From Oxalobacteraceae bacterium (GTDB lineage: Bacteria; Pseudomonadota; Gammaproteobacteria; Burkholderiales; Burkholderiaceae_D), in assembly GCA_021298555.1 (NCBI GenBank), contig JAJTGE010000019.1, positions 38,367 through 102,366 on the forward strand: a stretch of 64,000 nucleotides of DNA. The letters run 5' to 3'. Positions within the stretch are counted from its first letter, which is position 1. The number at the start of each line of letters is the position of its first letter. Under the pieces are notes generated by a model. It was not told the DNA's origin and ran no database searches. It saw nothing but the letters and a program-made list of their open reading frames with translations. Both the position numbers and the translations under genes were made by a program. Of the stretch, positions 7,429 to 61,321 are shown piece after piece.

Positions 7429-9731
7429 TTTCAATTTTAAGAACACTTAAAAAAACGCACGATCGGTCAGTTTCTTATAAAATCAACGACCCCAACAACA
7501 TTGTTCCCCGATCTCATCCGTTTGTAGCCACCACCCTCAAAGTAGAGGAAGTCTTTGGCTCACGCTATGTTGGTGTGATTGGCATCACGCCCAAAGAGGG
7601 CGATGTATTTAATCCCCAAGTCTTGGAAAAAGTTCAACGCATAACCGCCAAGCTACGAGAAACACCCCGCGTGGTGAAGGCCAATCTTTTATCCGTGTCA
7701 GCGCGTCGAGCAAAAGATATTCGAGGCACCGAGGAGGGCATGGAAGTCAAACAAATGATGACTGATGTTCCCAAGACGCCCGAACAGATGGCCGCCTTAA
7801 AAGATGCGCTGGAACGCAATACGGCTTACATGAATTCTGTCGTATCCAAGGATTTTAAAACTATCACTGTACTAGCTGAAGTTCGCGATGCCACGCCAGA
7901 AGAACTCAAGCAAGGCAAGGGCGGCTTTAGTTATGTGAATAATAAAATTTTGGACATTGTGAATGCCGAACGCGATGATTCTGTTGATATCGTGGTCACT
8001 GGCTATCCTGCATTCTTGGCGCTCTTAGAGCAGTTCTCAGGCCGAACGGGATTATTGCTCCTGATAGCTATAGGCATCATAGGTGTGATTCATTACGAAG
8101 CTTTCCGCACTATGCAGGGACTAATACTGCCGCTGGTTACTCCCATCATTGCGGTTATCTGGGGTAAAGGATTTATGGGTCTGGCGAACGTGCCGCTGGA
8201 TATTTTTAACATGTCCACCCCGATACTAATACTCGCGGTGGGGGCAGGGCATGCGGTGCAGATGCTCAAGCGATATTACGAAGAGTACAACCGACTTCGA
8301 CTTGATGACAGTCTCACGCCCAAAGAAGCCAATCGACTTGCCGTGATTGAATCAATCGTGAAGATAGGTCCGGTAATGTTGATAGCTGGTCTGGTAGCTT
8401 CGGCTGGCTTTTTCTCGCTCATGATTTTCGATATCGTGTCTATTCGTGTATTTGGTATTTTTTCTGGTGTTGGTATTTTGTCTGTACTCATTGTGGAAAT
8501 GACCTTTATTCCTGCGCTGCGTGCCATTCTGCCTGCCCCGGGCGAAAAAGAAGCACGTATGGAGCGTGAAGAGCGTATCTGGGATCGCATCACTGGTTTT
8601 TACGCCAACCTGATTTTAGGGCCGAGCAGAGATCGTATTTTTATGGTGGCCGGCGCTATTGTTGTGATTGCCTTAGTCGGCATGTCCCAACTCAAAATCG
8701 AGAGTGCACTTAAAAAATATTTTGATCCTAATCTGCCATTGATGGTGGCTGACCGTAAGCTCAATGAGCGTATGGCTGGCACGAACAATATTTATTTAAT
8801 GATCGAAGGCGATAAAGTCGATGCCATTAAAGATCCGGCAGTTTTACGCGCTATGGATGAATTGCAGCTATTTGTTTCGCAGCAGCCTAATATAGGTAAA
8901 GTGATTTCGATTGCTGAATTTATCAAGCGCATGAATCAATCGATGAATGCTGATAAACCTGAATTTTTCAGTATTCCTGATAAGCAAACGACTATTGCGG
9001 AATACCTGTTGCTCTACACCATGTCAGGTGAACCTGGTGATTTTGATCCCTACGTAGACTACGACTACCGTATGGCTAATATGGTGGTCTTTACGCATAG
9101 CGACAGTACAGCTGACATGAAAGACCTTTGGGTAAAAATTCAGCAATTTACTGAGGAAAAATTTCCAAAAAATATTAAAGTCAGCATAGGTGGTAGCGTT
9201 GCACAAAGCGCCGCTATTACCGATGTCATCGTAAAAGATAAAATTCTTAACGTAATACAGATCGCCAGCGTGGTTTTTATTGCTGCATCGCTGGTCTTCC
9301 GTTCTGCGTGGGCAGGTGTGTTGGTAGTCACACCCTTACTGCTTTCGGTATTGGTCAACATGGGCCTAATAGGATTATTAGGCCTGCGTTTGAATGTACC
9401 GGTAGCCCTGACATCGGCATTGGCTATAGGTATAGGTGCTGACTATGCAATCTATATGTTGTTCCGTCTGCGAGAAGAAATGGCCACGGGAACAACTGAA
9501 GATGAAGCCTTTCGTAAGGTACTGCGTACCGCAGGCAAGGCCTGTTTGTTTGTAGCCTCAGCTGTAGCAGGTGGTTATGCGGTTCAGGCCGGTTCGCGCG
9601 GCTACTATCCTCACACATGGAATGCACTATTAATTGGTACAGCTATGTTGGTCAGCGTGACGGCTGCTTTGACTGTTATGCCAGCGTTGGTACATAAATA
9701 CCGTCCAAAATTTATTTTCAAAGGAGAGTAA
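7429..9731 (+). CDS. RND/MMPL-family transporter, apparently missing start codon and first TM segment
   Basis: 718-aa ORF from GTG 7575, but homologous coding continues upstream in frame (KINDPNNIVPRSHPFVATTLKVEEVFGSRYVGVIG) with no ATG/GTG/TTG before 7575. Confidence 0.8.
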
Positions 9732-9732
9732 T

Positions 9733-10575
9733 GTGAGTTATTCATCTATCGAAGTTAAACCTAGTGCATCTGGTTTTAATCGCTTGCGCATTGCAGGCCT
9801 GAGAGCAGGTCTAATTGCGGCACTCACTCTTCCTGCGGCTGCTTGGGCACTGACTGCCGTTGAAATCATGGATAAGAATTTTGTGGTCGGTAAATATGCT
9901 GATTCCACATCGGATACCACCATGACATTAACGAACAAATCAGGCCAGCAGCGTGTGCGAAAAACTTTTGGTACATCTAAGCTTGATGCCAACGGAATAG
10001 ACAATAAACGCATGACACGTTTTCTTGAACCTACAGATGTCAAAGGAACGGTCTCTTTGTTAGTGGAGCATTCGGACAAAGATGACGATATCTGGATTTA
10101 CCTGCCTAGCGTGAAGAAAGTTCGCCGTCTGATTTCCAGCAATAAAAAAGACAGCTTTGTGGGTACAGATTTTTCTTATGGCGATGTGATCGGTCACAAG
10201 GTCAAAGAGTGGAATCACACGCTGGTCAAAGAAGAGGATATTGACGGCAAGACTTGCTACGTGATCGAATCCACACCCAAAGATGCCACTGTCAAAACCA
10301 ATACCGGCTATTCCAAGCGCGTGGGTTGGATACAGAAAGATAATTTTGTTACCGTCAAAGCGATTGCTTACGATGAGGCTGGAGAATTACTTAAAGAGGC
10401 TAAGTATTCTCACTGGAAGGAAGTCGATACCGTTAAACACAAATGGCAGGCTGGCATATTAGAGGCCAAAAATCTTCAGACAGGCCACAGCACCGTTATT
10501 ACTATTGACCAGTTCAAAGTCAATAATGGTGTAAAGGATGACTTCTTCACTACCCGCTACATGGAACAGCAATGA
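9733..10575 (+). CDS. outer membrane lipoprotein-sorting protein (LolA-like fold)
   Basis: Signal peptide; DIWIYLPSVKKVRRLISSNKKDSFVGTDFSYGDV typical of RND-associated LolA-like proteins. Confidence 0.8.
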   Translation: MSYSSIEVKPSASGFNRLRIAGLRAGLIAALTLPAAAWALTAVEIMDKNFVVGKYADSTSDTTMTLTNKSGQQRVRKTFGTSKLDANGIDNKRMTRFLEPTDVKGTVSLLVEHSDKDDDIWIYLPSVKKVRRLISSNKKDSFVGTDFSYGDVIGHKVKEWNHTLVKEEDIDGKTCYVIESTPKDATVKTNTGYSKRVGWIQKDNFVTVKAIAYDEAGELLKEAKYSHWKEVDTVKHKWQAGILEAKNLQTGHSTVITIDQFKVNNGVKDDFFTTRYMEQQ

Positions 10576-11858
10576 GCTTGATGTCTTATTTTAAGCCCCG
10601 GTTTTCCGGGGCTTTTTATATCGCTTGTTTGACTTTGTTTGCTCCAGCCTTTATATCCGTGGCTTGTGCACAAGATGCTAACGACATGGCACCACCTGTA
10701 AGAGATACAGTATCAACAGACGCTGGCGTTCGTAAACAGCTCAATGCCATAGGTTTGACTGGATCACTACGCGGGGGGTACTGGAGTTCTAACCGTTTAT
10801 ATGATGATGTATCCAACATCGGAACGGGGTCCGTTTGGTTAAAGCTGGATAAAAAACTAAGTAACGGTATAGGTTTGTTTGCCGAAGGTTTCGCTGCCCG
10901 TGAAGATATGAGATCAACAGGTAATTCTCGCAATCGTTTGCGTGAAGCCTATGTAGAAACACGCTCAGGGGCTTTCGATTTCCGCGTAGGTAAGCAAATC
11001 ATTGCCTGGGGCAGGACAGACCGGCTAAATCCTACCGATAACCTCACGCCACGCGACGCCAGACTGATGGCGGCCGATGTTGATGAAGATCGCTTCGGTT
11101 CCATGGCTGGTAAAGCATCTTGGAATATGGATGCTTACACCAGCATTACGGGTATATGGCTGCCAGAGTTTCAACCAAACACACTATTTTTACGTTCGGG
11201 CTTGAAAGAGACTGTGCCTAACAGTCGTCGACAATGGGCAGTTAAATTTGATCAATCCGGTAAAGACTTGGATTGGTCGGTCTCGTATTTTGATGGTTAT
11301 GATTTAAATGGTGATTTGTCAGCTGCTCGGGTACTCAAACATTACCGCACTCAGGTTCTCGGCGTGGATGCGGCAACGACCCGAGGTTCCTATCGATTTG
11401 CAGTCGAATCAGCATTTACACGTACAGAAGATCCTACTGGCACAGATGATTTTATTAAAAATCCGTTCCTGTATACAGTGATGGGTGTAGAGCGAGATTT
11501 TGGTAATAACACGAGCGGTATCGTACAAGTGTTTAACCGCACTGTGAGCAATTACAGTCAACCACCTACCGCGGCTCGCTTACATGCCATCTTGGCGAAT
11601 CAGCTAGATCGAACACAAAATGGTGTCAGCATACGCATTGCAAAAAAATGGTGGAATGAAACGCTAGAAACTGAATTATCCGGAGTCAGTCTGTTAAATC
11701 GCCATGGCTATTTGATACGCCCCCGCATGACGTATCTGTGGAGTGATCAGGTAAAAATCCTAAGTGGCTATGAGTACTATCAGGGTAGTAACGATACCTT
11801 GTATGGTCTGCTGAATAAAAACAGCCTACTATTTATAGAGATGCGCTATTTTTACTAG
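10572..11858 (+). CDS. DUF1302-like outer membrane beta-barrel protein
   Basis: Signal peptide, VGKQIIAWGRTDRLNPTDNLTPRD motif, C-terminal aromatic RYFY; ATGA overlap with upstream gene. Confidence 0.7.
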   Translation: MSLMSYFKPRFSGAFYIACLTLFAPAFISVACAQDANDMAPPVRDTVSTDAGVRKQLNAIGLTGSLRGGYWSSNRLYDDVSNIGTGSVWLKLDKKLSNGIGLFAEGFAAREDMRSTGNSRNRLREAYVETRSGAFDFRVGKQIIAWGRTDRLNPTDNLTPRDARLMAADVDEDRFGSMAGKASWNMDAYTSITGIWLPEFQPNTLFLRSGLKETVPNSRRQWAVKFDQSGKDLDWSVSYFDGYDLNGDLSAARVLKHYRTQVLGVDAATTRGSYRFAVESAFTRTEDPTGTDDFIKNPFLYTVMGVERDFGNNTSGIVQVFNRTVSNYSQPPTAARLHAILANQLDRTQNGVSIRIAKKWWNETLETELSGVSLLNRHGYLIRPRMTYLWSDQVKILSGYEYYQGSNDTLYGLLNKNSLLFIEMRYFY

Positions 11859-11864
11859 CCAAAT

Positions 11865-12434
11865 TTAGCAAGTCGTATAAATAGTGTTTTTAGGTGCTGA
11901 GAGTAGTTGACGGACCATGGGTTCGAAAAATGACAATGGCAGATGGTCGTAGCCGGGATCAAACGCCGGTGCGTCATACTTCTCACAAAATTCCAGAGTA
12001 CGGTCGTACACCGCTTGACCCTTGAATTGATCGCGTAAATTTCTATCCATGTCCAGATGATGGAAAAAATAATAGGCCTGAAACATGCCATGTTTTTCTA
12101 CCATCTCAAAATTCTCTGGGCTGACAAAGGGCTTGAGCAGGGCGGCTGCAATATCGGGATGGTTGTAACTGCCCAGCGTGTCACCAATATCGTGTAACAA
12201 CGCACACACAACATATTCATCATCTTTGCCATCACGATGTGCCAGGGTGGCCGTCTGCAAACTATGCGTTAATCGATCGACGGCAAATCCACCCGTGTCG
12301 CCATCGAGTAGCTTTAAATGTGCAATGACACGGTCAGGAAGCTTAGCTGCGTAAGCACGAAAATCCTCAACAATGATATTCCAATCGTCTTCGGTGCTAT
12401 CTCGCATATCCGTAAATGTTGCGCGCTGCAGCAT
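11865..12434 (-). CDS. HD domain protein
   Basis: CALLHDIGD motif with upstream His; ATG at 12434. Confidence 0.75.
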   Translation of the reverse strand: MLQRATFTDMRDSTEDDWNIIVEDFRAYAAKLPDRVIAHLKLLDGDTGGFAVDRLTHSLQTATLAHRDGKDDEYVVCALLHDIGDTLGSYNHPDIAAALLKPFVSPENFEMVEKHGMFQAYYFFHHLDMDRNLRDQFKGQAVYDRTLEFCEKYDAPAFDPGYDHLPLSFFEPMVRQLLSAPKNTIYTTC

Positions 12435-12822
12435 ATAACGTTCCTTATAGATTTCAGTGAATATTCCTATCATAGCGTGTCTGTCACAAACGAGCCAGGC
12501 GACTAGCCTACATCACAGATCACAAAGCGTATGTTTGCTTTTGCCGAAGTTATAAGGATGACCCCTACGTCAGTGTTGACCTACTCCGTTTCTAGGCTGG
12601 CGATATCAAATTAACTATGCCTGGTAATTGATGCATTTGTATGTCGTGCGTGATGAGATTATGCCTAAAGTCCGGTTATCATTGGATGTAAACGTAGTTG
12701 TAAGAGGATAGACCTACAGTATTGAAGAACTGCGCAAGTACAGGGCCATAGGCCTTATGTATATTGCTGCATTTACTTTGATGACGGTGGTCATTTCGAG
12801 TGTTGTTTTATAAGGTAAAAAA

Positions 12823-15636: not shown

Positions 15637-18249
15637 TTATATCAACATTAAAAAGCCGTTCGCTGTCATTCCCATACCGAGCAATGCAGCTAGTCCGGAT
15701 CCATAGAGCACCCAGCGCGACGTTGAGAAGAACGCCATAAAACTCAGGCCTATGCCAAACAGAAGTATGGCTTTGGCTACTGCAAATGAGTTCATTTGTA
15801 GACTGGCTTGTTGAGCCAACGCATTTTGTTGATTAATAGAGCTAGCCAATTCTTTTTTACCGTTCATGGTCAACGGTGAAGACTCCAGATTTTGAATAGC
15901 AGATCGATAAAGCACAAGACGGCTTTCAGTTATGTCTTTTTGTTCATTGCTAAGCGCTGAGGTGTCACTCAACGATAAATCTAGTCCGCTAGCTGTTAGC
16001 TGATAATTCGTTTGTTGTGCGCTGACGCTTTGAAAAGCGGACTGAGCTTGTACAACCTGATAGCCATGACCAACCATTTGTGTTTGTGCAGAGGATTCTC
16101 CAACGCTGGAGAGGCCGTGTGCAGCGCTGAGTGCGGTAAATAACACCCCCGCTATTAGTCGATGGTGAGAGCTAGTCAATGGAACAGAATCAGCAACAGC
16201 GGCTGATTCTTTTTTTTCTAATTTCGGCGAGTTTGCCGCAGGAATTATGGTTGGTGGTATTGATGGTACGGGCGAAGGCGAAGGCGCAGTAGTGGCAGCG
16301 GCTGTTACAGGCACAACGGCAACAGGTTGTTGTTTGACTTCAGCAGGTCTGGGTGCATTAGAAATCGATGACATATCTACGCCTTTGGAATTTGGTTTAT
16401 TCACGTCGTATTTTTCTAGCTGATCTAGGCAGCCATGAATTTTGGCAGTACGTATTTTTGCAAATACCATGCGTTTTTTCGGAGTCCCTGCGGCTTCGCC
16501 AGAGTCATCTGATATGTCATTTCGGATGATGGGTCCATCACCGTCGTGGGCTTGCACATCGGTATTGCCGTGATGGTCCACATCATGCTGATGGCGGGAT
16601 ATCTCTGGCCCATCACTTTTCTTGATGGATGATTTTCCTGTATTGGCTTTGTCATCGCGAAGATGTTTGGCCGATATATCAACGCCGTTATTAGTTGAAT
16701 GCCGGTTGATTTCAGGACCATCAGAGTCATCGATACGATTTTTGGTTATTGACCCATCAGCATCATTGATATGATTTTTGGTTATTGGCCCGTCAGCATC
16801 ATCGATACGATTTTTGGTGACAGGCCCATCGGAATCATCAATTCGATTTTTGGTTATTAGTCCGCTATCTGAATCGGTAATATGATTACTGATCGATGGA
16901 CCCTTCTCAGCATCGACAAGATGGCTTTTTATTTTTGGACCAGAGCCATCATTTAAAGCATTTTTTAGTACAGGCCCGTCTTGTTTATTTTTTTTCGCCT
17001 TATTGGGCGCGGACTCAAGCTTGTCTTCCTTGAGCGTATGGTTAATGACAGGGCCGGTAGTAGAGTCACTAGCATCTTTGGGTGGCACATCATTTATCTG
17101 ATTTGCATTTTCGGCGATAGTTGCCAGCCCCTGTTCATCTTGAATCGCCTTTGCCAGGTTCTCAGAGTTTTCGCGTATCTTGCCGCTGATTGTATTTTCC
17201 AGGGCATTTTTTCCCAGCGACAGTTTTCCGTCTTTTACTCTGTCGGAATGATCTACTTTTTGAAAATCTTCGTTACTTGATTTTTCTGTTTCGACTAGAA
17301 ACTTTCTGTCAAATACGACGCTTTCTTCTTCACCTTTTTCAATCGCTGTGGGGATTTCATTTTTAGGTTTTTTTATAACTGGGCGACGGTCCAAAGGCCT
17401 TTCATTTTTTAGGAAAAGAATTTGGTAATAAGCTTTGAAGCTATCTTCGGAGTAGCCGAATGCCGGCAGCATTCGTTTAAATAAGTCTCTTTCTGCGTTT
17501 TCAACTAAACCATCCGACAACATGGTGTCGCAGGTATTAACAAGCAAACATAGTTTTTGTCGTGGGTTTAGAAGATCAGGGGCATTTTTTAAAAATTGAT
17601 GTGCTTTGTTCTGACCGACATATTTCAAAGCTGCTTTAAGTAGACTTTTAGATTCCCCAATAATGACTTGTAATTGTCCGATTTCTTCTGTGGCCATTAC
17701 TCCGTCAGAAGACATCATGTAGAGCAAGGAGACCGCCAAACTTAACTGTGGTGTAAGCGTATCGGGGCTAAAGTCACCGTCAAACGATCCGAGAACAGAA
17801 CGTTTGTTTTTGATAGATATTGCACCGAAGTAGGGTTTGAATGATTTTTCGGAGTGGCCCAGGGAGGTCAGTATATTTTGAAACAGATCCCATTCAAGGC
17901 TGGATAATTCGCCGTCTGCCATGATGGAATCGCAAACGTTTATCAGTATGCATAACTTGTCGTTACCAAAAACTACCGAAGGTAGTTCTTGTAAAAAATC
18001 TTCTATTGGTGTGGCTTCAACGTAGCGCACAGCCCGGTGGAGCGCTTCTTCGTTGTCGCCTATGACAGACTGTAACTGACTGCTTTCGCTGTCTGATACC
18101 TCGCCATCAGCAATCATCATATAAATGATGGATGCAATTAAAGCTATTAATGGGGTGAGTTGAACGCGGGCGTCACTTCCCGCACCTGGAATATATTTGT
18201 CCAGATTGAGGCTTTTGAATAAATGCTTAAATAAATCGCCCGAACCCAT
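15637..18249 (-). CDS. large protein: two TerB-like domains, 12-aa tandem repeats, C-terminal TM segments
   Basis: MMIADGEVSDSES...CDSIMADGELSSLEWDLF and MMSSDGVMATEEI...CDTMLSDGLVENAERDLF; repeats DGPITKNRIDDSD; C-terminal hydrophobic helices. Confidence 0.75.
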   Translation of the reverse strand: MGSGDLFKHLFKSLNLDKYIPGAGSDARVQLTPLIALIASIIYMMIADGEVSDSESSQLQSVIGDNEEALHRAVRYVEATPIEDFLQELPSVVFGNDKLCILINVCDSIMADGELSSLEWDLFQNILTSLGHSEKSFKPYFGAISIKNKRSVLGSFDGDFSPDTLTPQLSLAVSLLYMMSSDGVMATEEIGQLQVIIGESKSLLKAALKYVGQNKAHQFLKNAPDLLNPRQKLCLLVNTCDTMLSDGLVENAERDLFKRMLPAFGYSEDSFKAYYQILFLKNERPLDRRPVIKKPKNEIPTAIEKGEEESVVFDRKFLVETEKSSNEDFQKVDHSDRVKDGKLSLGKNALENTISGKIRENSENLAKAIQDEQGLATIAENANQINDVPPKDASDSTTGPVINHTLKEDKLESAPNKAKKNKQDGPVLKNALNDGSGPKIKSHLVDAEKGPSISNHITDSDSGLITKNRIDDSDGPVTKNRIDDADGPITKNHINDADGSITKNRIDDSDGPEINRHSTNNGVDISAKHLRDDKANTGKSSIKKSDGPEISRHQHDVDHHGNTDVQAHDGDGPIIRNDISDDSGEAAGTPKKRMVFAKIRTAKIHGCLDQLEKYDVNKPNSKGVDMSSISNAPRPAEVKQQPVAVVPVTAAATTAPSPSPVPSIPPTIIPAANSPKLEKKESAAVADSVPLTSSHHRLIAGVLFTALSAAHGLSSVGESSAQTQMVGHGYQVVQAQSAFQSVSAQQTNYQLTASGLDLSLSDTSALSNEQKDITESRLVLYRSAIQNLESSPLTMNGKKELASSINQQNALAQQASLQMNSFAVAKAILLFGIGLSFMAFFSTSRWVLYGSGLAALLGMGMTANGFLMLI
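16727..16870. repeat. near-perfect 36-bp tandem repeats within the TerB-like ORF, embedded in a longer degenerate array (about 16500-17060)
   Basis: tcatcgatacgatttttggttattgacccatcagca / tcattgatatgatttttggttattggcccgtcagca / tcatcgatacgatttttggtgacaggcccatcggaa / tcatcaattcgatttttggttattagtccg. Confidence 0.9.
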
Positions 18250-18480
18250 GGTGACTGTTGGCTGCTTTGAGTAGTAAACAAGAGCTGCTCACCGGCCGGG
18301 TAAGACAGTTTCTCTCAAAGATAACGGTACACTTGGTGGGTAATGATGCGGGTTACAGAATAGACAGAATATTTACAGATTACTGTATTGTCATTTAACG
18401 AGTTGAGGAAATCGGTTTTCCACAGCTTGGAATCGACTTAATTGATTTGAGTTCGCGCGACGGCACTTAGCCTAAGACGC

Positions 18481-19365
18481 CTAAAATCGTGTGCCATAGC
18501 GAATGATTAGCCGGTTGGTTTCTATATAGCCATTTTTGGTTTCTAGATCGCGGCCGTATTGAACGGTGACCCTGCCAAAGTCAAAGTTGGCTGCACCGGT
18601 GATTTGCCAGCGCTGAAGGGATATGGGATCGTTGAGGTCAAGCCCGTTAAGATTTGTTTCTCCACCTTGGGTGTAAAAATGCGTCGCCGCTAACGAGTAA
18701 CGATCACTGATGATATAGCGTAGCCCGTTTTGTGCCGAATACAGATTTTGTTGGCGCAAGGGGACATGTGCCAAGCCATAGTCATCGTTTTTACCGAACC
18801 ATACACCATCAACTGCCGTCATCCATTCCAGATTTCGTGCTAGCGAGCGCTGATAGCCAACTTGTAGCGCCGAAGAAATACGGTTGGCTCCCATGTTGAG
18901 AGAAGAGCGTCGCGCATCATAGCTTCCAGTAGGTAGGGTCAGGTAACCGCCTACTGCCAGATACTCGCCGGTGTCACGGTTCGAGTATGGCCATACGGCC
19001 AGCAGAAATGACACATCGCCCGTACCCGAGTCACCAGGTAGTTTGCTCAATGTTCCTGCGGGCTGAATATTTCCCATGGGCAGCTGCGCATAGATAAACG
19101 CAGGAAGGCTGTACAAATCGAACGAGGTACCCAATCGGATTTGTATCTGTTCAGACTCGATTTTTGTACCAGGTCTAAAGCGACTACCATTTTTGAAATA
19201 GTCACCACGTTCAGAGAGTTGATAAGACACTAAAAACTGCTTCACCCCTGGGTTAGGCGCAATAATTTCGCCGGGTATCAAATCAATAGCAATTGCATGC
19301 CGCTGCCAAAAAAGGATAACCAAGCAAAGTAACTTAAGAATGCTGTGGCGGTAGGATAGGGTCAT
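18481..19365 (-). CDS. outer membrane protein of the phenol MetA-pathway transporter type
   Basis: Signal sequence, LPTGSYD motif, beta-barrel C-terminus ending IRYGTRF. Confidence 0.6.
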   Translation of the reverse strand: MTLSYRHSILKLLCLVILFWQRHAIAIDLIPGEIIAPNPGVKQFLVSYQLSERGDYFKNGSRFRPGTKIESEQIQIRLGTSFDLYSLPAFIYAQLPMGNIQPAGTLSKLPGDSGTGDVSFLLAVWPYSNRDTGEYLAVGGYLTLPTGSYDARRSSLNMGANRISSALQVGYQRSLARNLEWMTAVDGVWFGKNDDYGLAHVPLRQQNLYSAQNGLRYIISDRYSLAATHFYTQGGETNLNGLDLNDPISLQRWQITGAANFDFGRVTVQYGRDLETKNGYIETNRLIIRYGTRF

Positions 19366-19732
19366 TATTGAATGTTTTACTTTTTACAATAACAACATTA
19401 ATTTGTCAGGTTGTAATTAACTAGCTTGGTTTATAAACTGACAAAACCAGCCTCGGGATTAAAACCATATATCAAAGCAATAAAACGAAATAAATAGTTG
19501 AGTAACCTTTAATTACGTACAGATTTATGACACTTAAAATAAATCAATAGAAAGTATAAGTGAAATAAATACAAATTACGAATATGTAATTATTTGTTAG
19601 CTTCGGTTGCTTATTATTAGTTTAATTAAATACTTGTGACGGTCAAAACTCAGTCTAAAGTTACATCCATGACAAACAATTTACGCGTGCAATGGATAAT
19701 GCTCAATAATTAATGTTTTAACAACACGCCTA

Positions 19733-20428
19733 ATGAAAATACTTCTAATTGAAGATGAAATCAAGATAGCTGAATTTACTATTCTCGCTCTTTCGGCAGC
19801 GGGTTTTACAGTCAGCCATGTAAGCAATGGAGCAGCCGGTCTCGCTGCCATGCTGGATGGAGATTATGACTTGGTAGTTTTGGATGTAATGCTGCCAGCA
19901 CTGGATGGGTTCGAGGTGTTAAAAAAAGCTCGTGAGTTAGGTAATAAAATCCCCGTGGTTTTTTTGACAGCTAAAGGTGAGCTACCTTATCGCCTGAAGG
20001 GCTTTGAAATAGGTGGCGATGATTATATCTCTAAGCCATTTTTTGCCGAAGAATTAGTGGCTCGCGTCAGAGCGATTAAGGCCAGAATTAATAACGATAA
20101 CGTAGATGAAATAACCATTAATCAAGTTTGTCTGAATAAAGTAAGTAGTAGGGTGTTTTGGAGAGGTATCTCAACACCGCTGAGTCAGAGAGAATTTAGC
20201 CTGATTGAGTTCTTAATGCGATCACCGGGACACATTTTTTCCAGAAAGCAGATTCTGCAGCATGTATGGGCGATTAGCTTTAATCCAGAAACAAATGTTG
20301 TCGATGTCTATATCCAACGCATAAGAAAAAAATTGAACAGGAATTCTCCGTCAGGAATTGAATTTCCGATTGAAACTATCCGAGGTGTTGGATATAGATT
20401 TCGCCTCGAATCTAAAGTCGAACAATGA
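19733..20428 (+). CDS. OmpR-family response regulator
   Basis: ILLIEDEIKIAEF, VLDVMLPALDGFEVL, FLTAKGE, winged-helix C-terminus. Confidence 0.92.
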   Translation: MKILLIEDEIKIAEFTILALSAAGFTVSHVSNGAAGLAAMLDGDYDLVVLDVMLPALDGFEVLKKARELGNKIPVVFLTAKGELPYRLKGFEIGGDDYISKPFFAEELVARVRAIKARINNDNVDEITINQVCLNKVSSRVFWRGISTPLSQREFSLIEFLMRSPGHIFSRKQILQHVWAISFNPETNVVDVYIQRIRKKLNRNSPSGIEFPIETIRGVGYRFRLESKVEQ

Positions 20429-21810
20429 AACGGTCACTGAGATGGATAATTTTTGGTTATATCCTCCTTGCTGTTTTATTTATATTTATAGTAAATAGAA
20501 CTATTGCTCAAAGACTTTCACCACAAACTGTCAACAGCCGTCTAAAAGCTGATGTGGCAAACACCATGGAAAACTGTAAGGACGTAAGTAATAGCCGCCA
20601 ACAGTATTTAGGATGTGCTGTACAGGTAAGTAAGGATCCAATTTTTGGCGGCATGACTAAATACTATGTATTGTGTGCTGAGAGAGATAAATCAACTTCA
20701 GAACAGCCTGCCATTTGCGAAGAAATTCGCGGTATGCAATTCGAAAATTCTAAAGAGATGGTGTCACCCACAGTCGAAATTGTGGAGCAGTCGATAAACA
20801 ACGAAGCATGGATGATTGCGCAATTTTCATCAAATCCATCAGGGCCAAAGATAGTAATTCTTAGAAAAAATATTGATGAGTATGTCTTGTCACTTTGGGA
20901 TTTTCGAACCAGGGTCGCCACCTATACAGGTCCCTTTTTATTGCTGTCGTTAATAGTTCTCGCATGGTTTTGTAGCAATTTAATCATGGCGCCGATTCGG
21001 CAAATTGAAGAATCTCTAAAAAAATTATCATCTAAAAATTTGGATAAACCCTTGGAGATCATGCCTGTTTACAAAGAATTTGACAGCTTTATCACCGTAT
21101 TTGAGCTATTAAGAATCCGATTGAATGAAAGTTTTGTTCAGGCTCGTCGATTTGCAGGAGATGCATCCCACGAATTGAAAACCCCGCTGACTATTTTGCG
21201 CGGAAACACGGAGCGCATTATTGCCCGTTTGCCGACGGGATCAGAAGAGCAAGTACGAATGCGCTCCGTAGCTGATGAGGTAGAACGCTTGATAGACATT
21301 ACGGAAAAGCTGCTGCTACTGTCTAGTGCAGATGCCAATATTATTCAGTACGAAATGAGAGAAGTGAATGTCAGCGATGTTATTGGGCAACTAGTAATTG
21401 ACGCAAAAATTTTCCAGGAAAAGCTTGTTATCACCAGTGATTTACAAACTAAGATAGTTTGGCTATGTGATCCAAATTTGATCAACCAACTTTTTTATAA
21501 TTTATACACTAATGCCGTTAAATATAACGTGGAAGATGGTTGGATCAGAATAAAACTCACTAAGTTAACGAATGGGTTTGAATTTTTAATGTCGAATCCC
21601 ACATCAAATCCACCGGCAGATCTTGCCCAAAGAGCATTCGATCGTTTTTACCGGGGAGATTATTCGCGAGCTAGAAATATTGATGGTGTAGGCTTAGGTT
21701 TGAGCCTGTCTCAAGAGATTGCCCGGGTTCACGGGGCTGCACTGACCTTGAATGTCAGCGCAGAAAATGTCGTTACGCTAAGTCTTCGATTCCCTGCGGG
21801 TGGCAGTTGA
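20425..21810 (+). CDS. sensor histidine kinase
   Basis: DASHELKTPLTILRGNTE H-box; NAVKYN; DGVGLGLSLSQEIARVHG. Confidence 0.92.
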   Translation: MKRSLRWIIFGYILLAVLFIFIVNRTIAQRLSPQTVNSRLKADVANTMENCKDVSNSRQQYLGCAVQVSKDPIFGGMTKYYVLCAERDKSTSEQPAICEEIRGMQFENSKEMVSPTVEIVEQSINNEAWMIAQFSSNPSGPKIVILRKNIDEYVLSLWDFRTRVATYTGPFLLLSLIVLAWFCSNLIMAPIRQIEESLKKLSSKNLDKPLEIMPVYKEFDSFITVFELLRIRLNESFVQARRFAGDASHELKTPLTILRGNTERIIARLPTGSEEQVRMRSVADEVERLIDITEKLLLLSSADANIIQYEMREVNVSDVIGQLVIDAKIFQEKLVITSDLQTKIVWLCDPNLINQLFYNLYTNAVKYNVEDGWIRIKLTKLTNGFEFLMSNPTSNPPADLAQRAFDRFYRGDYSRARNIDGVGLGLSLSQEIARVHGAALTLNVSAENVVTLSLRFPAGGS

Positions 21811-28670: not shown

Positions 28671-31600
28671 ATGTTCAAGCAAAGTTCTGCAGGAAAAGTG
28701 CGTACCGAGCTACCCAGCGCCCGCGTCGTTATCGTGACTATGGATAGTCATTTGGCGAGCGCGACTATTCGCGCTCAAAGCGCGTTGTCACGCATCTTTC
28801 CAGGTTTGCGACTAACCGTGCATGCTGCTTCTGAGTGGGGTAATAGTCCTAGTGCCCTCGAACGCTGCATAGACGATATTAATCACGGCGATATTGTGAT
28901 TGCCTCTATGTTGTTCCTGGAAGAGCATTTCCTCCCAGTTCTCCCTGCATTGACTGCACGTCGCGATCACTGTGACGCCATGATTTGTGCCATGTCCGCT
29001 GCTGAAGTCATGAAGCTCACCCGCATGGGTAAGTTTGCGATGGATGCCAAAGTCAGTGGCCCTATGGCTTTATTAAAACGGCTGCGTGGAAACACCAAAC
29101 CAGGCGAGGGCAAAAAGCCCGGCCTAGCGGGTGCCAGGCAGATGAAAATCGTTCGCCAACTTCCCAAGTTACTGCGCTTTATACCCGGTACAGCCCAAGA
29201 TCTTCGTATCTACTTTCTAGTGCTTCAGTATTGGCTGGCTGGCTCAGAAGAAAACATCACCAGCATGATAGGCATGCTGTTAGATAACTATGCCGATGGA
29301 CCGCGACGTAGTTTGCGTGGCATCTACAAAATACAGCCGCCGGTTGAATATCCAGAAGTAGGTATCTATCATCAAAACATGAAGGGCAATGCTCAAAACA
29401 AGGGCATGTCCGAGTTATCAACCGATCTTCCTTCGGTCGCTAAAACTGGGAAGCGTGGCACGGTAGGTTTGCTGCTGATGCGTTCGTACCTGGTAGCAGG
29501 TAATGCAGCTCACTACAACGGAGTCATTACTGCACTTGAAGCGCGCGGCATGCGGGTTATACCGGCGTATGCAACCGGTTTAGATACGCGTCCTGCGGTT
29601 GAAAAATATTTTATGAAAGATGGTCGTGCGTCGGTCGATGCAATTATTTCGCTGACCGGTTTTTCTATGGTTGGTGGGCCGGCCTATAACGACTCAAAAG
29701 CGGCGGAAGAAATACTTGCAACGCTGGATGTAAATTATTTGTCGGTGATGCCAGTAGAGTTTCAAACGCTTGAGCGTTGGGGTGCCAATGATCGTGGCTT
29801 GATGCCCGTAGAAGCGACGATGATGGTTGCTATTCCCGAGCTTGATGGGTCAACTGGCCCGATAGTTTTTGGTGGACGTAGTAATGGTGCGGGCGATCAA
29901 TGCACCGGATGCAGTCGTCGTTGTGTGTTCCCATCCTCGGAGAATGAGCATGACATGCAAGTGTGCATAGAGCGCGCTGATATGTTGGCTTCGCGAGTAG
30001 GAAAATTAATTGATCTGCGCCGTGCTGAGCGCGCGCAGAAAAAAGTAGCTGCAGTTATTTTTAATTTCCCACCTAACGCAGGCGCAACGGGTACAGCAGC
30101 TTTTCTTTCTGTGTTTGAATCCTTGTTTAATGTACTCGCATCCATGAAGGCAGCGGGCTACACCGTTGATATGCCAGCCGATGTAGATGATTTGCGTGAT
30201 CGCGTCATTAAAGGCAATGCAGAACGCTATGGCGCGCAAGCCAATGTGCATGTCACGATCTCTGCTGATGATCATGTGCGTCGCGAGCGCTGGCTAAAAG
30301 AAATCGAAGCGCATTGGGGTCCGGCACCGGGTCAGCAACAGAGTGATGGCCGTTCAATTTTTGTCTTGGGTGCGCAATTCGGTAACGTCTTGGTTGGCAT
30401 ACAACCGGCCTTTGGTTACGAAGGCGATCCTATGCGTTTACTGTATGAGAAGGGGTTTGCTCCTACTCACGCATTTTCTGCGTTTTATCGCTACATACGC
30501 GAAGACTTTGGTGCAGCTGCAGTGCTGCATTTTGGTACCCATGGCGCGCTTGAATTTATGCCTGGCAAACAGGCAGGTATGTCGGGTGATTGCTGGCCTG
30601 ATCGTTTGATAGGCGATCTGCCAAATTTCTATCTGTACGCGTCGAATAATCCTTCCGAAGGCATGATCGCCAAGCGACGTGCTGCAGCAACGCTGATTAG
30701 TTATCTTACGCCACCGATTTCCCAAGCAGGTTTGTACAGTGGCCTGATAGATTTGAAAGCATCGCTGGAGCGTTTGCGTGGACTGGGTCCAGAGTCAGAA
30801 TCTGAGCGAGAGGAATTGACTATCTTGGTGCAGACTCAAGCAGCAGAGCTTGAGTTGACCTCGATGCATCCTGCATGGGGTGACGATGCCGAAGAAAAAA
30901 CACAGCAGCTCTATAACGATTTGCTGGAATTTGAATACACGCTGATACCCGAAGGCTTGCATGTTATTGGTCGTCCGATGTCTGTATCGGAGCGCACCGA
31001 GATGTTGTTATCGGTTGCGGATGCATCGCACGGAATACCGGTCAGCGCTGAACTTCGTCAGCAGGTGCATGGCATGCTTACGGAGAGCAAAACCAACGTC
31101 ATACCGCCTGAGCATGTTGAACTCATGAAGTCGCTGGCAAACATCGATCGTCTGATGTGCGAGGATAATGAAATCAATGGCATTTTGCATGCTCTGGATG
31201 GTCGCTATGTGCGTCCTGCGCCTGGTGGAGATTTAATACGCACGCCAGAGGTGTTACCTACGGGTCGTAATCTTCATGGCTTTGATCCTTTCCGATTGCC
31301 GAGTGCGTTTGCGGTTAAGGATGGCAAGCGTATGGCTGAGCATTTGCTCAAGCGCCATATCGAGGATGGAAATCCGCTGCCAGAGACGATAGCGATGGTG
31401 TTGTGGGGCACGGATAATTTAAAAAATGAAGGTGCTCCGATAGCGCAAGCGTTAGCGCTGATGGGAGTCAAACCGCGCTTCGATAGCTATGGCCGCATGG
31501 CAGGTGCAGAATTGCTGCCATTGGAAGAAGTAGGGCGTCCGCGCATTGATGTCGTAATTACCTTGTCCGGCATCTTCCGTGATTTGCTGCCGCTGCAAAT

Positions 31601-32365
31601 TAAGCTACTTGCAGAAGCTGCATTCTTGGCCGCCTCCGCGGATGAACCATTAGAGATGAATTTCATACGTAAGCATGCCTTGGCTCATCAGGCTGAACAT
31701 GGCTGCGATCTTGAAACAGCTGCGCTGCGCGTTATACCAAGCGTAAGGGTTTTGCGTATGGCGTGAACGGTCGCCCGGCGCAGCAAACCGCCTTGCTTAA
31801 GAGCGTATTGGCGGGTGTCGATTTAGCGTATCAAAATTTAGATTCGGTCGAATTGGGTGTGACGACCGTTGATACCTACTTTGATACCTTAGGCGGTATT
31901 AGTCGTGCTGTGAAACGCGCTAAAGGCCCAAATGCTCCTGTAGCACCGGTCTACATTAGCGATCAAACCAAAGGTAGCGGAACGGTTCGTACCTTGACCG
32001 AGCAAGTCGCTCTGGAAACGCGCACGCGTATGCTCAATCCTAAGTGGTATGAAGGTCTGCTCAAAAACGGCTATGAAGGTGTGCGTCAGATTGAACTGCA
32101 CGTCACCAACACCATGGGCTGGTCGGCGACGACAGGTCAGGTGCAGCCATGGATCTATCAAAAGCTGACCGAAACATTCATGCTCGATCCGGAAATGCGC
32201 GATCGTATGGCCAAACTCAATCCAACCGCCGCCGCTCGAGTAGCGAGCCGCTTGCTGGAAGCATCCAAACGTGATTTCTGGAAGCCGGATGAAGCCACAC
32301 TTGCGCAACTCAAACGTGCTGAGGAAGATTTGGAAGATCGCTTAGAGGGTATTTACGAGCAGTAG
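28671..32365 (+). CDS. bchH: magnesium protoporphyrin chelatase subunit H, split by an apparent out-of-frame internal deletion near 31733
   Basis: ORF 28671..31766 (BchH N-terminal about 1020 aa) and ORF 31763..32365 (LLKSVLAGVDLAYQNLDSVELGVTTVDTYFDTLGGISRAV...). Confidence 0.93.
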
Positions 32366-39572: not shown

Positions 39573-39632
39573 CGTATATTTTTAGCCCTATAAAAACTGT
39601 AAACCCTACGCAGCGATATATCGTTTGATTTC

Positions 39633-40192
39633 TCAGAACAGTGCCATCTGACGTTCGTCCAGAAGAAAATCCACCACGAACTGCAACAGCAGTGTGTGGT
39701 GGATGTAATAGTGCCAGTAGGGCTGCATGTATTTTTTTTGATACCAGCTCTGCTCACTTTCCAGATGGCAGCCTATCAAGCCTTTCGTTGATCATCGCCT
39801 CGCCAATTAATTTGTGTCGTGGTGGCATAGGATGATTTGACTTCAGCCCGTGCTCGTTTGATATGTTGAACAACTCGCGTATCTTTGAGTATGTCGAAAT
39901 AATATTTGTCTGCCCAATAAGCACCCATGCAAATACCCAGATATTTGCCGCCCAGGCTCAGAAATTTTTTGACGTCATCCAGGTTGGCTTTGAGCAGTGA
40001 TCCAAAAGCGCTGGCATCCCCGACACCACCGGGAAACACGACCAGTTCGACGTCATCAAAAAAATCATCCTGTACTTTGTGTTTGGTGAAAATTTTAATA
40101 GCGTAGTTAGGAGCGAGCGCCCTCATGATTCCATTAACAGATTCTATGGAACACATGGGATGGTGCACGAAAACGGCAATATTCTTTTTCAA
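39633..40192 (-). pseudogene. BPL_N-domain/GATase1-like protein split by an out-of-frame internal deletion near 39780
   Basis: ORF 39776..40192 (VVFPGGVGDASAF, GICMGAYWADKYYFD) stops after INWRGDDQRKA; another frame continues KGLIGCHLESEQSWYQKKYMQPYWHYYIHHTLLLQFVVDFLLDERQMALF* to 39633. Confidence 0.75.
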
Positions 40193-44085: not shown

Positions 44086-44445
44086 AGTAAGACTTATACC
44101 GTCACAAGCACGGATCAAGTCTCTCATGAGTTCTAAAATTTTCTTCACGGCGTCTTTGAACGCATCAGTTGAAACAGCGCATCACTCGCCGTGGAGGCGT
44201 CAAAGTTGAGCACTTCACCTTACTCACGATGATCTCAGCCAGCGACTGCACCAGAATCCATAATTCTTGAGATAAAAGCAGGCCCATTTCATGTTGAGCT
44301 CGCTAAAGAGTCTGCTCCTTGGGCTCCTGCTAAAGAAACCAGAGAGGGGCATGAGTATCTTGGAAAAATTAAAAAACGAATTGGTCTAGGCTGATGAAGA
44401 GATACATTAACGTAGACAGGACAGTCTGCTTAATACAATGCGGTT

Positions 44446-44862
44446 TTATCGGGCGATAAAATTTGGGGCTTCTACTGCGTTACGAGCGCTGGTTTTCAAG
44501 GGCATGATCAAACCCATGAGCTTGGCCCCGTGTGCCACAGATAAATCACCGTAAGTTATATCGCCATGGATCACGGCTGATTTGCGGAAAACGGCCCGCT
44601 CGGTAGCTAAAACATTTCCCTCTATTTTCCCTTCCACCGTGACCTGATAAACACTGATATCGCCAACAATTTCGCCTTTCAATCCGACAAACAGTTGTAC
44701 CTTTTTTTCGGGTGGAGATTCGATATTGCCGAAGATTTTTCCATCGATACGGGTGCTGCCAGTCAATACTAATCGACCGTGTATCTCAGAGCTTTCGCCT
44801 ATCAGAGTGTCAAATTTTTCTGAGGCAGCCATGATATTGCTGGTATTTTTCAGTGAAAACAT
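44446..44862 (-). CDS. bactofilin family protein
   Basis: TLIGESSEIHGRLVLTGSTRIDGKIFGNIESP...GEIVGDISVYQVTVEGKIEGNVLATERAVFRKSAVIHGDI. Confidence 0.9.
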   Translation of the reverse strand: MFSLKNTSNIMAASEKFDTLIGESSEIHGRLVLTGSTRIDGKIFGNIESPPEKKVQLFVGLKGEIVGDISVYQVTVEGKIEGNVLATERAVFRKSAVIHGDITYGDLSVAHGAKLMGLIMPLKTSARNAVEAPNFIAR

Positions 44863-47129: not shown

Positions 47130-47839
47130 TTACTTTAGATCAGCCAATCGTTCCTTGCCCATACTGGCTGCAATGGAGGATGGATATTTCTTAAGTAATA
47201 GTTCTAGTGTTTCACGCGCAGCTGCTTTGTCTTTGAGATCAAGCTGACAACTAGCAATATTTAACAATGCTTCAGGTTACTTCCAAGCCAAAAATATGCT
47301 TGTGGCAGGTAGCCAGAATCAGGATAACGCTGTAAAAAACTGGTAAATAGCAGTTGAGAGTTACTGAAATTTCCACTTTTGAATTCTGCGAGTCCGTTGT
47401 CAAAAGCTTTTTGTTCTGCTTTTTCAACATCTACGTCTTTGCCATCGAGCGTTAGTCTTTGTGGTTCGAGCTTACGCAGCCGCTGATCTAGATCGTTATA
47501 AAAATCTTTCTGACGTCGCTGGCTGTTATTGATTTCATTGGATAACACTTCAAGCTGACCTCGCAAGCTCGAAACGTCGTTACGTAATTTTTCAATTTCG
47601 CCAATCAGATCAACAATACTTTTTTTGTCAGCTTTGTCGTCAACGCGGGTATTTAATGGCGCTAATTTGGATGCCACGCTGGCATCGAGCTTGGTATTGA
47701 GTTCTTCAATTTGCTTGCGCATCTTGATGATTTCACGCCGCGCGTCAGTATCTTCAAATAACGCATGTGCCCGCATAGGTAGGCCAAGAAAAAGCGCCGC
47801 CATGACGGCGGCGCTGGCTACTTGATGGAGTCGTGTCAT
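47130..47839 (-). CDS. cpoB: Tol-Pal system protein CpoB/YbgF, split by an out-of-frame internal deletion near 47270
   Basis: ORF 47261..47839 stops after YFWLGSNLKHC; another frame gives PEALLNIASCQLDLKDKAAARETLELLLKKYPSSIAASMGKERLADLK* down to 47130. Confidence 0.88.
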
Positions 47840-47847
47840 GTCTTTGA

Positions 47848-48426
47848 TTAGTAGACGATGTCAGCGCGACGGTTTTCTGCCCACGCCTCTTCGCCGCTGC
47901 CAGTTGCCTTAGGCTTTTCTTTGCCCAGGGAGATGGCTTCCATTTGGCTGTCTGCTACGCCCATCAGCTGCAAAGAGCGACGAACTGCTTCAGAGCGCTT
48001 CTGACCCAAAGCAAGATTGTATTCACTGCCGCCGCGCTCATCGGTATTACCTTGAATGACGATCTTGCGGTCCTTGCGCGAGATAAGGTATTTGGCGTGC
48101 GCTTCAAGCACCGGTTTGAACTCATCTTTGACTACAAAGCTGTCCAAATCAAAATAGATGCTTCTCTTGGCAAGCACGCTGGCCGGATCATCGAGCGGGT
48201 CTTTGGATTTGCTGCCGCTACTACTACTGCTGCTGCTGGATGAACTGGCAGTACCGTCAGCTACCATTCCAGGATCGCCAGGGTAGGGCGGTAGCGTGGT
48301 TATTTGCGGAACTGGTTTGCCTGCGCGGTCTTCTACTGGCGCGGAGTCGTCCAGTTTGACAGTTGAGCAAGCTGATAGCACTAGCAATAGTGTCGCGACG
48401 ATAGCTACTTGTTTATTAAATTGCAT
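47848..48426 (-). CDS. pal: peptidoglycan-associated lipoprotein
   Basis: Lipobox LSACS; YFDLDSFVVKDEFKPVLEAHAKYL; OmpA-like GNTDERGGSEYNLALGQKRSEAV. Confidence 0.96.
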   Translation of the reverse strand: MQFNKQVAIVATLLLVLSACSTVKLDDSAPVEDRAGKPVPQITTLPPYPGDPGMVADGTASSSSSSSSSSGSKSKDPLDDPASVLAKRSIYFDLDSFVVKDEFKPVLEAHAKYLISRKDRKIVIQGNTDERGGSEYNLALGQKRSEAVRRSLQLMGVADSQMEAISLGKEKPKATGSGEEAWAENRRADIVY

Positions 48427-55125: not shown

Positions 55126-55245
55126 TGTCATCCGAGTAATTAAAGTCTTATTGGTGATCGAACCAATATCCGAATTTTTATCATCTACTCACCTTTGTTA
55201 GAAAAAATCTAACCTAGCTTTCGCGGTTCTATCCAAAAAATCATA

Positions 55246-56735: not shown

Positions 56736-56742
56736 CAGGCGC

Positions 56743-57270
56743 GTGAAAAATAAGACATATCCAGCCCTATGTCTACCTTCAGGAGTTAGTGGCTTTACTT
56801 TACTGCCTTGCCTTATTTTATCCATGGCTTTATTGATGATGACTCTCGCAGCACTTCGATTTGCACATGATTTTCGTTTTCTGATCACAGCTAATGTGGA
56901 CAGACTCATTGCAAAAGAAGCGGCTGAAGCAGCATTGCAGGATGCCTATCGCCACTTGGAAATCGGCGACGATCCTCTGTCATTGGCGGGTAATGATGTG
57001 GTCTATAAATTTGGCAGTATTACTGGAGATGGATTTTCTTATGGCGGGCGTATGCAATCAGCAGCCTCTCCAGAGTATCAATTCAAAGTCATTCATGTAA
57101 GTGGGCTGGAAGGTATTGCGCGAGTTACTGCTACAGGTTTTGGTATATTCGATTCGACGCGCGCAGTCATACAGGTTGATTATGTAATTCGACTTTGTTC
57201 AGATGATGTGATTACTTTTTGTCGAAGAAAAATAAGTGAGCTAGCCTGGCGTGAGCAAGTACGTGAATGA
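56743..57270 (+). CDS. pilX: PilX-like pilus assembly protein
   Basis: GFTLLPCLILSMALLMMTLAALR; ANVDRLIAKEAAEAALQDA. Confidence 0.65.
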   Translation: MKNKTYPALCLPSGVSGFTLLPCLILSMALLMMTLAALRFAHDFRFLITANVDRLIAKEAAEAALQDAYRHLEIGDDPLSLAGNDVVYKFGSITGDGFSYGGRMQSAASPEYQFKVIHVSGLEGIARVTATGFGIFDSTRAVIQVDYVIRLCSDDVITFCRRKISELAWREQVRE

Positions 57271-57883
57271 TGAATTGAATATGCATAGCTTTGAATTTTC
57301 CTCAAATAAGCGCAGACGATCGGGATTGCGATTAACGTGTCATTTCAACGGTAAAAATATCTTTTCACGTTCAGGCTTTGGCTTTGTTGAGTATCTTACG
57401 ACCCTGTCGATTGCAGCAATCGTACTTATAATCGCTTCGGCTAATTTCAAGCCGTTAATGGATAGATCACGCGTAGTTTCAGCCTCGGGTGAATTTCGTG
57501 CTGCACTTTTATTGGCGCGTGCTGAAGCGGTGCGGCGACACTCGCGTGTCGATATGATTCCTTTGGATGCTAAGGATTGGGCGCACGGATGGTTAATATT
57601 AATAGACGCAAATAATAATCAGCATTTTGATACAGGAGATCTATCGTTACACCGCAATCTTAGCAACCTGCAAGGTCTAGTAATAGAAGCAAATCTTCGT
57701 GACAGCAAAAAGGCGTATCTTGCATTTGACAGCAATGGGCGCCCTCGCAGCGCAGCCAGTGTTCAAACTCCTCAATTTGGCTCGCTCCTCTTTTCTGTTG
57801 GTGAACAAAGACGCAAGATCATCATTAGTTTTTTGGGGCGTGTTCGTCTATGCGATCCGGATAAAGATGCCGCTACTTGCTAG
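57251..57883 (+). CDS. fimT: GspH/FimT-family pseudopilin
   Basis: GFGFVEYLTTLSIAAIVLIIA; RAALLLARAEAVRRHSRV. Confidence 0.75.
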   Translation: MSKYVNDELNMHSFEFSSNKRRRSGLRLTCHFNGKNIFSRSGFGFVEYLTTLSIAAIVLIIASANFKPLMDRSRVVSASGEFRAALLLARAEAVRRHSRVDMIPLDAKDWAHGWLILIDANNNQHFDTGDLSLHRNLSNLQGLVIEANLRDSKKAYLAFDSNGRPRSAASVQTPQFGSLLFSVGEQRRKIIISFLGRVRLCDPDKDAATC

Positions 57884-57952
57884 AATGATGAATTATTCGA
57901 TGCGTCAGCTTCGCAGGTATTTCAGGCTTCTACACCCCTAATCCCTCATTAC

Positions 57953-59053
57953 GTGAAAATCGCTAACGATATCGAAGGCATGCAACTCGCCTTAAAACAG
58001 GCAGAGCTAGCTCTTTTTATTACCAGCCCTAATCCGCGCGTGGGTTGTGTGATTGTTAAAGAAGGCGTCGTTTTAGCCCAGGGCCATACCCAGGCAGCAG
58101 GTCTGGCACATGCTGAAGTTGCCGCATTGCGCGATGCAGCGTCGCGTGGCGTCAACGTGCGGGGTGCGACGGCGTATGTCAGCCTTGAACCTTGTAGTCA
58201 TCATGGTCGTACACCACCCTGTACTGATAGTTTGATCAACTCTGGTGTGGCGCGGGTGGTGGTGGCAATTGCGGATCCCAACCCGCTGGTGGCAGGCAAG
58301 GGCTTGGCTCTACTGCAAGCAGCTGGCATTACGACAGAGGTGGGTGTGTTGGCCGCAGAGGCCCGGGAAATGAATGTAGGATTTTTTACCCGTATGCAGC
58401 ATGGTCGTCCTTGGGTGCGTATGAAAATTGCCGCCAGCCTTGATGGTGGCACAGCGCTTTTGAATGGAACCAGCCAATGGATTACATCCGAACCCGCCCG
58501 AGCAGATGGCCATGCCTGGCGTGCGCGTGCCTGTGCATTGCTGACAGGTATGGGCACGGTGGAGCAGGATGATCCTCAACTAACGGTGCGTGCAGTCAGT
58601 ACCCCACGACAGCCACGAAGGATAGTGCTCGATAGCCAGCTTCAGATTAGCCCGACAGCGCGCGTACTGGAAGGTGGCGGTACCTGGATAGTGAGCGCAG
58701 AGCGGCATGATGCTCGCGAACTGGAGTTAACAGCCCTAGGCGCAGAACTTATTCACATGCCATCGAGCGAGGGTAAAGTTGACTTGCACGCGCTGATGCA
58801 GGAATTAGGCAAACGCGAGATCAACGAGTTGCATATAGAAGCTGGATACAAACTTAATGGGTCGTTGTTGCGAGCAGGCTGTGTGGACGAATTACTCATT
58901 TACCTAGCACCTTGTTTACTGGGCCCGTCTCAGGGTATGGCGAGATTACCTGAACTGACTGAATTATCTTCACGCATGCGGTTGCAGTTTCATGAAGTGC
59001 GCTCTGTAGGATCAGATTTGCGAATACTGGCGCGGTTAACTCCAGCATCATAA
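57953..59053 (+). CDS. ribD: bifunctional riboflavin deaminase/reductase RibD
   Basis: NPRVGCVIVKEGVV; HAEVAAL; SLEPCSHHGRTPPCTDSL. Confidence 0.97.
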   Translation: MKIANDIEGMQLALKQAELALFITSPNPRVGCVIVKEGVVLAQGHTQAAGLAHAEVAALRDAASRGVNVRGATAYVSLEPCSHHGRTPPCTDSLINSGVARVVVAIADPNPLVAGKGLALLQAAGITTEVGVLAAEAREMNVGFFTRMQHGRPWVRMKIAASLDGGTALLNGTSQWITSEPARADGHAWRARACALLTGMGTVEQDDPQLTVRAVSTPRQPRRIVLDSQLQISPTARVLEGGGTWIVSAERHDARELELTALGAELIHMPSSEGKVDLHALMQELGKREINELHIEAGYKLNGSLLRAGCVDELLIYLAPCLLGPSQGMARLPELTELSSRMRLQFHEVRSVGSDLRILARLTPAS

Positions 59054-59087
59054 AAAATTTATTAATTTAGATACTTAAGCTCACATT

Positions 59088-59717
59088 ATGTTTACAGGAA
59101 TAGTTGCAGCAGTAGGCCAGATTACGGCGATAGACCCTTTGGGCAGTGATGATGATGCCGGTGTGCGACTGCAAATCGGTAGCGGTGGTTTGCCGTTGGA
59201 TGATGTGGGGATTGGCGATTCGATTGCCATTAATGGCGCTTGCATGACAGTTACACAAAAATCGGCTCATGGTTTTAGTGTGGATGTCTCGCGTGAGAGT
59301 CTAAATTGCACAGCAGGATTGGATACGCTGGGAGAAGTGAACCTCGAAAAGGCGCTAACGCTGTCTGAGCGCCTGGGTGGCCATTTGGTGTCAGGCCATG
59401 TGGATGGACTGGGCAGAGTCACGCATTTCGCGGCAGTGGGTGAGTCATGGCGGCTGGATATAGTGGCACCGTTGGAGTTAGCTAAATACTTCGCCTACAA
59501 AGGTTCAGTGGTGGTCAATGGTGTGTCGCTGACAGTCAATAGCGTTAAAGACAGTGATCAGGGCTGCACTATCTCGATTAATCTGATTCCGCACACCATT
59601 GCAGTGACCACACTGAGGCATTTAGAGGTGGGTAGTAACGTTAATCTCGAAGTTGATTTGATAGCCCGCTATGTCGAGCGTATGCTCAGCTCCCAAATGT
59701 TATCAAAAACAACTTGA
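59088..59717 (+). CDS. ribE: riboflavin synthase
   Basis: MFTGIVAAVGQI; NGACMTV; GHLVSGHVDG. Confidence 0.97.
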   Translation: MFTGIVAAVGQITAIDPLGSDDDAGVRLQIGSGGLPLDDVGIGDSIAINGACMTVTQKSAHGFSVDVSRESLNCTAGLDTLGEVNLEKALTLSERLGGHLVSGHVDGLGRVTHFAAVGESWRLDIVAPLELAKYFAYKGSVVVNGVSLTVNSVKDSDQGCTISINLIPHTIAVTTLRHLEVGSNVNLEVDLIARYVERMLSSQMLSKTT

Positions 59718-59810
59718 ATTGATAGTGTCAGCCTCAGCAAAGCTGGTTAGATTGGTGACGGCTATCGCTTGAAATCCTATAAAATGGCGATCCTTTCGAG
59801 AGCCGTCCTC

Positions 59811-60923
59811 ATGTCTATATCCACTACTAAAGAGATCATTGCCGAGCTGCGCGCCGGCCGTATGGTCATCCTCGTTGACGAGGAAGACCGTGAGAACGAG
59901 GGCGATCTGGTTCTGGCTGCTGAGTTCGTCACCCCTGAGGCCATTAATTTTATGGCCAAGCACGGGCGCGGTTTGATTTGCTTAACGCTCACTGAGGAGC
60001 GATGCGATCAGCTGAACTTATCGATGATGACAACTCGCAATGGCACATCCTATGGCACCAACTTTACGGTATCCATCGAGGCTGCTGAGGGGGTTACTAC
60101 AGGTATTTCTGCAGCCGATCGTGCCAAGACGATAGAGGTGGCTGTGGCGCGCCATGCCAAGCCGTCTGACATTGTGCAACCAGGTCATGTATTTCCTTTG
60201 CGCGCGCAGCGTGGCGGAGTGCTCATGCGCGCTGGCCATACCGAGGCTGGATGCGATCTCTCTGAGCTTGCGGGTCTAACACCAGCTGCGGTAATCTGCG
60301 AAATACTCAAAGACGATGGCAGTATGGCGCGCTTGCCTGATTTAATTGAATTCGCGCGTGAGCATCAACTGAAAATCGGCACCATTGCCGATCTGATTCA
60401 TTATCGTAGCCAGACAGAGAGCATTGTTGAGCGCGTGTCTGAACGCAGCATGCAGACGTCTTATGGTGAGTTTCATGCGATTGCCTTTCGGGACAAACCC
60501 AGCCGCGGCGCGCATCTGGCGCTGGTTCATGGCGAAATCAGCCCTGATAAGGAAACGCTGGTTCGAGTACACCAACCCGTGTCGATACTGGATTTGCTCG
60601 ATACCGAAGCAACCACGCATTCCTGGAATATTGCATCGGCCATGAAGGCTATACAAAAAGCTGAACGTGGCGTGATCGTATTACTCAATTGTGAGGAATC
60701 GGCTGAACAGATGTTTGCGCAATTTGATGCGTTGTGCCAACCAAAGCCTATTAAACCAACGCGCGCAGTGCGCATGGATTTACGTACCTACGGTATAGGC
60801 GCACAGATTTTGCGTCAGTTAGGTGTGGCACAAATGAAGTTGCTTGCTAATCCCCGCAAAATGCCTTCAATGGCGGGTTTCAATTTGGAAGTGACTGGCT
60901 ATCAGGCCAGTCCTGAACTCTGA
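59811..60923 (+). CDS. ribB: 3,4-dihydroxy-2-butanone 4-phosphate synthase with degenerate RibA-like domain (RibBX-type)
   Basis: [34 protein letters not shown]-terminal domain lacks GTP cyclohydrolase II Cys zinc ligands. Confidence 0.93.
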
Positions 60924-60936
60924 AACAGGAGGCACT

Positions 60937-61321
60937 ATGAGTATAGGAATTTATGAAGCTAATTTTGATGGCGAGGGATTGCGCATCGGGATAGTTCAGG
61001 CGCGGTGCCCTAGAGATACCGCTGGCATTGCAAAAGATGGCTGAGTCCGGGCAGTTCGATGCGCTAATTGCCTTAGGTGCCGTCATTCGCGGTGAAACCT
61101 ATCACTTTGAATTAGTTGCGAACGAATCAGCTCGAGGTATTTCTTCGGTCGCTAAAGAATTCGGTATCCCGGTGGCCAATGCGGTATTAACAACCGAGGA
61201 TGATGAACAAGCTGAGGCGCGGATGTCGGTCAAAGGTACGGATGCGGCCCGCGTTGCTATTGAAATGGCGAATCTGGTGATTGCCTTGGATGAATTGGCT
61301 GATGAAGCCGGAGATGATTAA
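60937..61321 (+). CDS. ribH: 6,7-dimethyl-8-ribityllumazine synthase, split by an out-of-frame internal deletion near 61004
   Basis: [23 protein letters not shown] then frame change to [46 protein letters not shown]... Confidence 0.92.

Follow-up and report, generated by a model that had tools for sequence, protein, structure and literature searches.

The losses of sequence found within conserved genes of this contig are very probably assembly artefacts, judging from comparison of the DNA with that of relatives: scaffold joins at which the gap size was underestimated and the pieces were abutted. Apart from a possible true pseudogene at a cupin-like ORF, no biological claim is left. The window, that is the whole stretch of 64,000 nucleotides analysed here, corresponds to positions 38367-102366 of contig C106 of the draft genome G000 (2.45 Mb, 113 contigs, 81.6% complete), and six such losses were located in it.

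Relatives of the same genus were used as references, chiefly G003 (the genome containing JAIPCX010000005.1) and G004, both of which are collinear with a large part of the window, their DNA identity to it being roughly 70-85%. C106 was scanned against the proteins of G003 for cases in which one protein matched in two frames with a stretch absent between them, and the junction positions and sizes for bchH, the BPL_N gene, cpoB and ribH were taken from DNA alignments against G003, which agree with the protein scan. A stretch of about 6 kb (15637-21810), with ORFs of 870, 294, 231 and 461 aa, has no counterpart at the collinear place in G003.

Join 1 (7486..7487, plus strand) affects the gene of an MMPL transporter, with about 179 bp lost upstream of and inside the gene in alignment with contig C76 of G010. 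Four further joins each shift the reading frame, these being Join 2 (31732..31733, plus strand) with 91 bp lost from bchH (28671-32365), Join 3 (39783..39784, minus strand) with 97 bp lost from the BPL_N gene (39636-40192), Join 5 (47277..47278, minus strand) with 82 bp lost from cpoB (47133-47851) and Join 6 (61003..61004, plus strand) with 101 bp lost from ribH (60937-61321). Join 4 (44241..44242, plus strand) removes about 229 bp from the cupin-like ORF (about 44092-44472). None of the six lengths is divisible by three. Match coordinates in other relatives agree within a base or two, namely those of G004 for bchH, BPL_N, cpoB and ribH, those of G002 for bchH and ribH, and those of G016 for cpoB and ribH. 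At each site the sequence of the relatives is absent exactly at the join, the flanks are collinear, and all relatives compared carry the full segment. The missing segments, as represented in the relatives, are of ordinary G+C content (0.42-0.54), and a search of 1.1 Mb of G000 with them found no convincing copy elsewhere. In family searches both halves of bchH matched CobN/Mg-chelatase (PF02514), while the BPL_N gene matched PF09825 and cpoB PF16331.

An earlier sequence-only reading had listed five genes as each lacking a segment. Alignment with relatives bears these five out as features of the assembly and adds the cupin-like ORF at 44241, which that reading had missed. It had also described four genes as out of frame with an intact remainder, and in bchH, BPL_N, cpoB and ribH the part past the break is indeed intact in another frame. 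Its estimate of 28-45 missing codons was about right, the losses amounting to 27-34 codons in these four coding cases and to about 60 codons' worth for MMPL. The similarity of size that it remarked on holds only loosely: four losses measure 82-101 bp, but the window has two others of 179 and 229 bp, and those elsewhere in the genome range over 32-145 bp. Comparison with a close relative and exact measurement of the losses, both of which it had proposed, showed the full segment rather than the short form in the compared relatives at each site, and lengths of 91, 97, 82 and 101 bp and about 179 bp (MMPL), with 0-3 shared bases at the junctions.

The open frame of the MMPL gene now runs from 7428 to 9731. 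Relative to G010, the start codon and the first 36 codons are lost together with some 70 bp upstream, and the non-coding share of the ~179 bp depends on the relative chosen. No homologue was found in G003, and that on C76 of G010 shares 94% amino acid identity; the homologues in G006 and G012 likewise start with the N-terminus that is missing here. Upstream of the gene, positions 7454-7486 (AAACGCACGATCGGTCAG..TTCTTATAAAATCAA) are nearly identical in G010, unlike the surrounding intergenic DNA, and look like a conserved promoter or operator.

The cupin-like ORF, so labelled by reading of the sequence rather than by family search, has an intact counterpart in both G003 and G010. Its junction shows a 3-bp overlap (GCG). 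It also carries an in-frame TGA upstream of Join 4, and because of this extra stop it is possible that the ORF is a real pseudogene.

The junctions are blunt, sharing 0-3 bases, with no overlap or repeat beyond this. Direct and inverted repeats and a shared motif were sought at the junctions, and nothing worth noting was found, nor were there repeats spanning the breaks; the earlier impression that the junctions share no motif thus stands. The segment ends have neither the common motif nor the direct repeats that would mark a site-specific or homology-driven deletion, and the specific deletion process that had been offered as one of two explanations finds no support.

Third codon positions hold most of the differences from the relatives in bchH, cpoB, BPL_N, ribH and MMPL. 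All of these but MMPL were analysed on both sides of the break, the cupin-like ORF being left out, and the out-of-frame remainders show a like pattern of constraint in their original frame; downstream of the break the differences at codon positions 1/2/3 number 13/1/92 in bchH and 7/6/55 in ribH. This third-position bias is what would be expected if the genes function in the living organism, and indicates that selection acted on the tested genes into at least the very recent past. The relaxed selection expected of real pseudogenes is not seen in them, with the qualification that relaxation would not yet be visible after a very recent break. As regards ribH, its single match in G000 (an 82%-complete assembly) is the broken copy, so that in this incomplete genome the essential function is not covered by a second copy; the family was matched in 14 of 14 control genomes.

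Other contigs of G000 were surveyed over about 1.1 of the 2.45 Mb. Three N-runs, of 7, 21 and 41 N, are left in this part of the genome and two of them are too short: that at C7:1404-1444 has 41 N vs 221 bp in G003 (180 bp short) and that at C24:55274-55294 has 21 N vs 103 bp in G003 (82 bp short). The run of 7 N on C34 is about the correct length when compared with G010, which means that underestimation is not universal. Losses within genes without any N were also found, of 145 bp at C50:5648, 47 bp at C24:2601 and 32 bp at C29:16781. In the reverse scan of G003 against G000, no comparable loss was seen in ~290 kb of alignments, and for this reason the losses in G000 are far above chance. Their density is 4 per 58 kb on C106 against 3 per 295 kb aligned elsewhere (binomial p about 0.02), for which local low coverage or a strain mixture could be the cause.

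The most probable course of events is one in which a genome presumably built from paired short reads broke into contigs at these places, after which the paired reads would have put the contigs in the right order and orientation, with the gap size estimated some 30-230 bp too low. A positive estimate would have led to a run of N that is too short; where it was zero or negative, a rule that we infer, the contigs would have been abutted with nothing between them. An abutment of this kind within a gene would cost it 30-230 bp of its true sequence, in most cases with a frame shift. The joins with and without N, which fall short by comparable lengths, would thereby stem from one scaffolding step; this is the simplest account. 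So-called negative gaps, in which adjacent contigs should overlap according to mate-pair distance yet do not, are a known fault of scaffolding (PMC3504050), and the estimation of gap sizes in scaffolding has been treated elsewhere (PMC4262078). As in such negative or underestimated gaps (PMC3504050), the contig order here is right, the gap length is off by anything from tens of bases to a few hundred and there is no overlap; the difference is that most of the joins here carry no N, with the result that gene callers see frameshifts.

The main biological alternative is that the segments were really and recently deleted in this lineage, by decay of the genome or a process prone to deletions, with six events within 54 kb. 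It draws on the fact that the losses sit in C106 itself, the sequence of which carries no N, on their higher density there than on other contigs and on the extra stop codon in the cupin-like ORF. We consider it highly improbable, however, as the sole copy of ribH is among the broken genes, purifying selection is apparent on both sides of each tested break, the relatives have none of the losses, the junctions offer no microhomology or motif, and N-marked joins elsewhere in G000 have shortfalls of the same size. Should the deletions nevertheless be real, a very recent burst of short blunt events, clustered on one chromosomal stretch and hitting the only ribH, would be called for, and this has very little to commend it. 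The truncated and frameshifted conserved genes do resemble the pseudogenes of reduced or decaying bacterial genomes, but differ from them in the intact constraint on both sides, the involvement of the single-copy ribH, the blunt losses in genes of unrelated function and the matching shortfalls where joins are marked with N.

Metagenomes contain strain mixtures, and G000, a fragmented draft, has the size and completeness usual for metagenome bins. An assembly error of another kind, in which strain variants were collapsed in the graph or a bubble or repeat was misresolved and the segment skipped, might therefore be considered; such an error normally leaves a shared word at the junction, whereas 0-3 bases are shared here, and it would not account for the short N-runs, making it a very unlikely source of the losses. 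The same blunt joins would be expected if scaffold gaps had at first been written as N and stripped later. This was rejected and is given the least credence of all, as N-runs of 7, 21 and 41 persist in the genome and two of these are themselves too short. Of the two explanations that the sequence-only reading had put forward, the systematic assembly or gap-joining error is thus the one favoured, the short N-marked joins, the N-less losses elsewhere, the blunt junctions and the constrained genes all pointing to it.

Underestimated scaffold joins would mean that the losses have no bearing on the biology of the organism. They serve rather as a practical warning that unmarked joins in draft genomes can remove 30-230 bp inside conserved genes, which would then wrongly be taken for pseudogenes or for missing genes, here those of riboflavin and bacteriochlorophyll synthesis. 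Comparing the length of N-runs with the corresponding sequence of relatives is a cheap way to reveal such joins.

Some further differences in length should be mentioned. Those at C7:10884, C7:54738, C7:118961 and C33:357 were rejected as joins, being small and having the appearance of ordinary indels or start-site effects. Within the window, the intergenic region 39578-39633 lacks about 192 bp relative to G003 and G004, and may be a further join or ordinary intergenic variation, the two being indistinguishable. The site C9:47116 is ambiguous and was kept apart from the joins; G000 has 667 bp less there than G003, with a similar shortfall against G010, and a ThiF-like gene runs on in frame into the latter half of a nitroreductase-like gene (both named by reading of the sequence).
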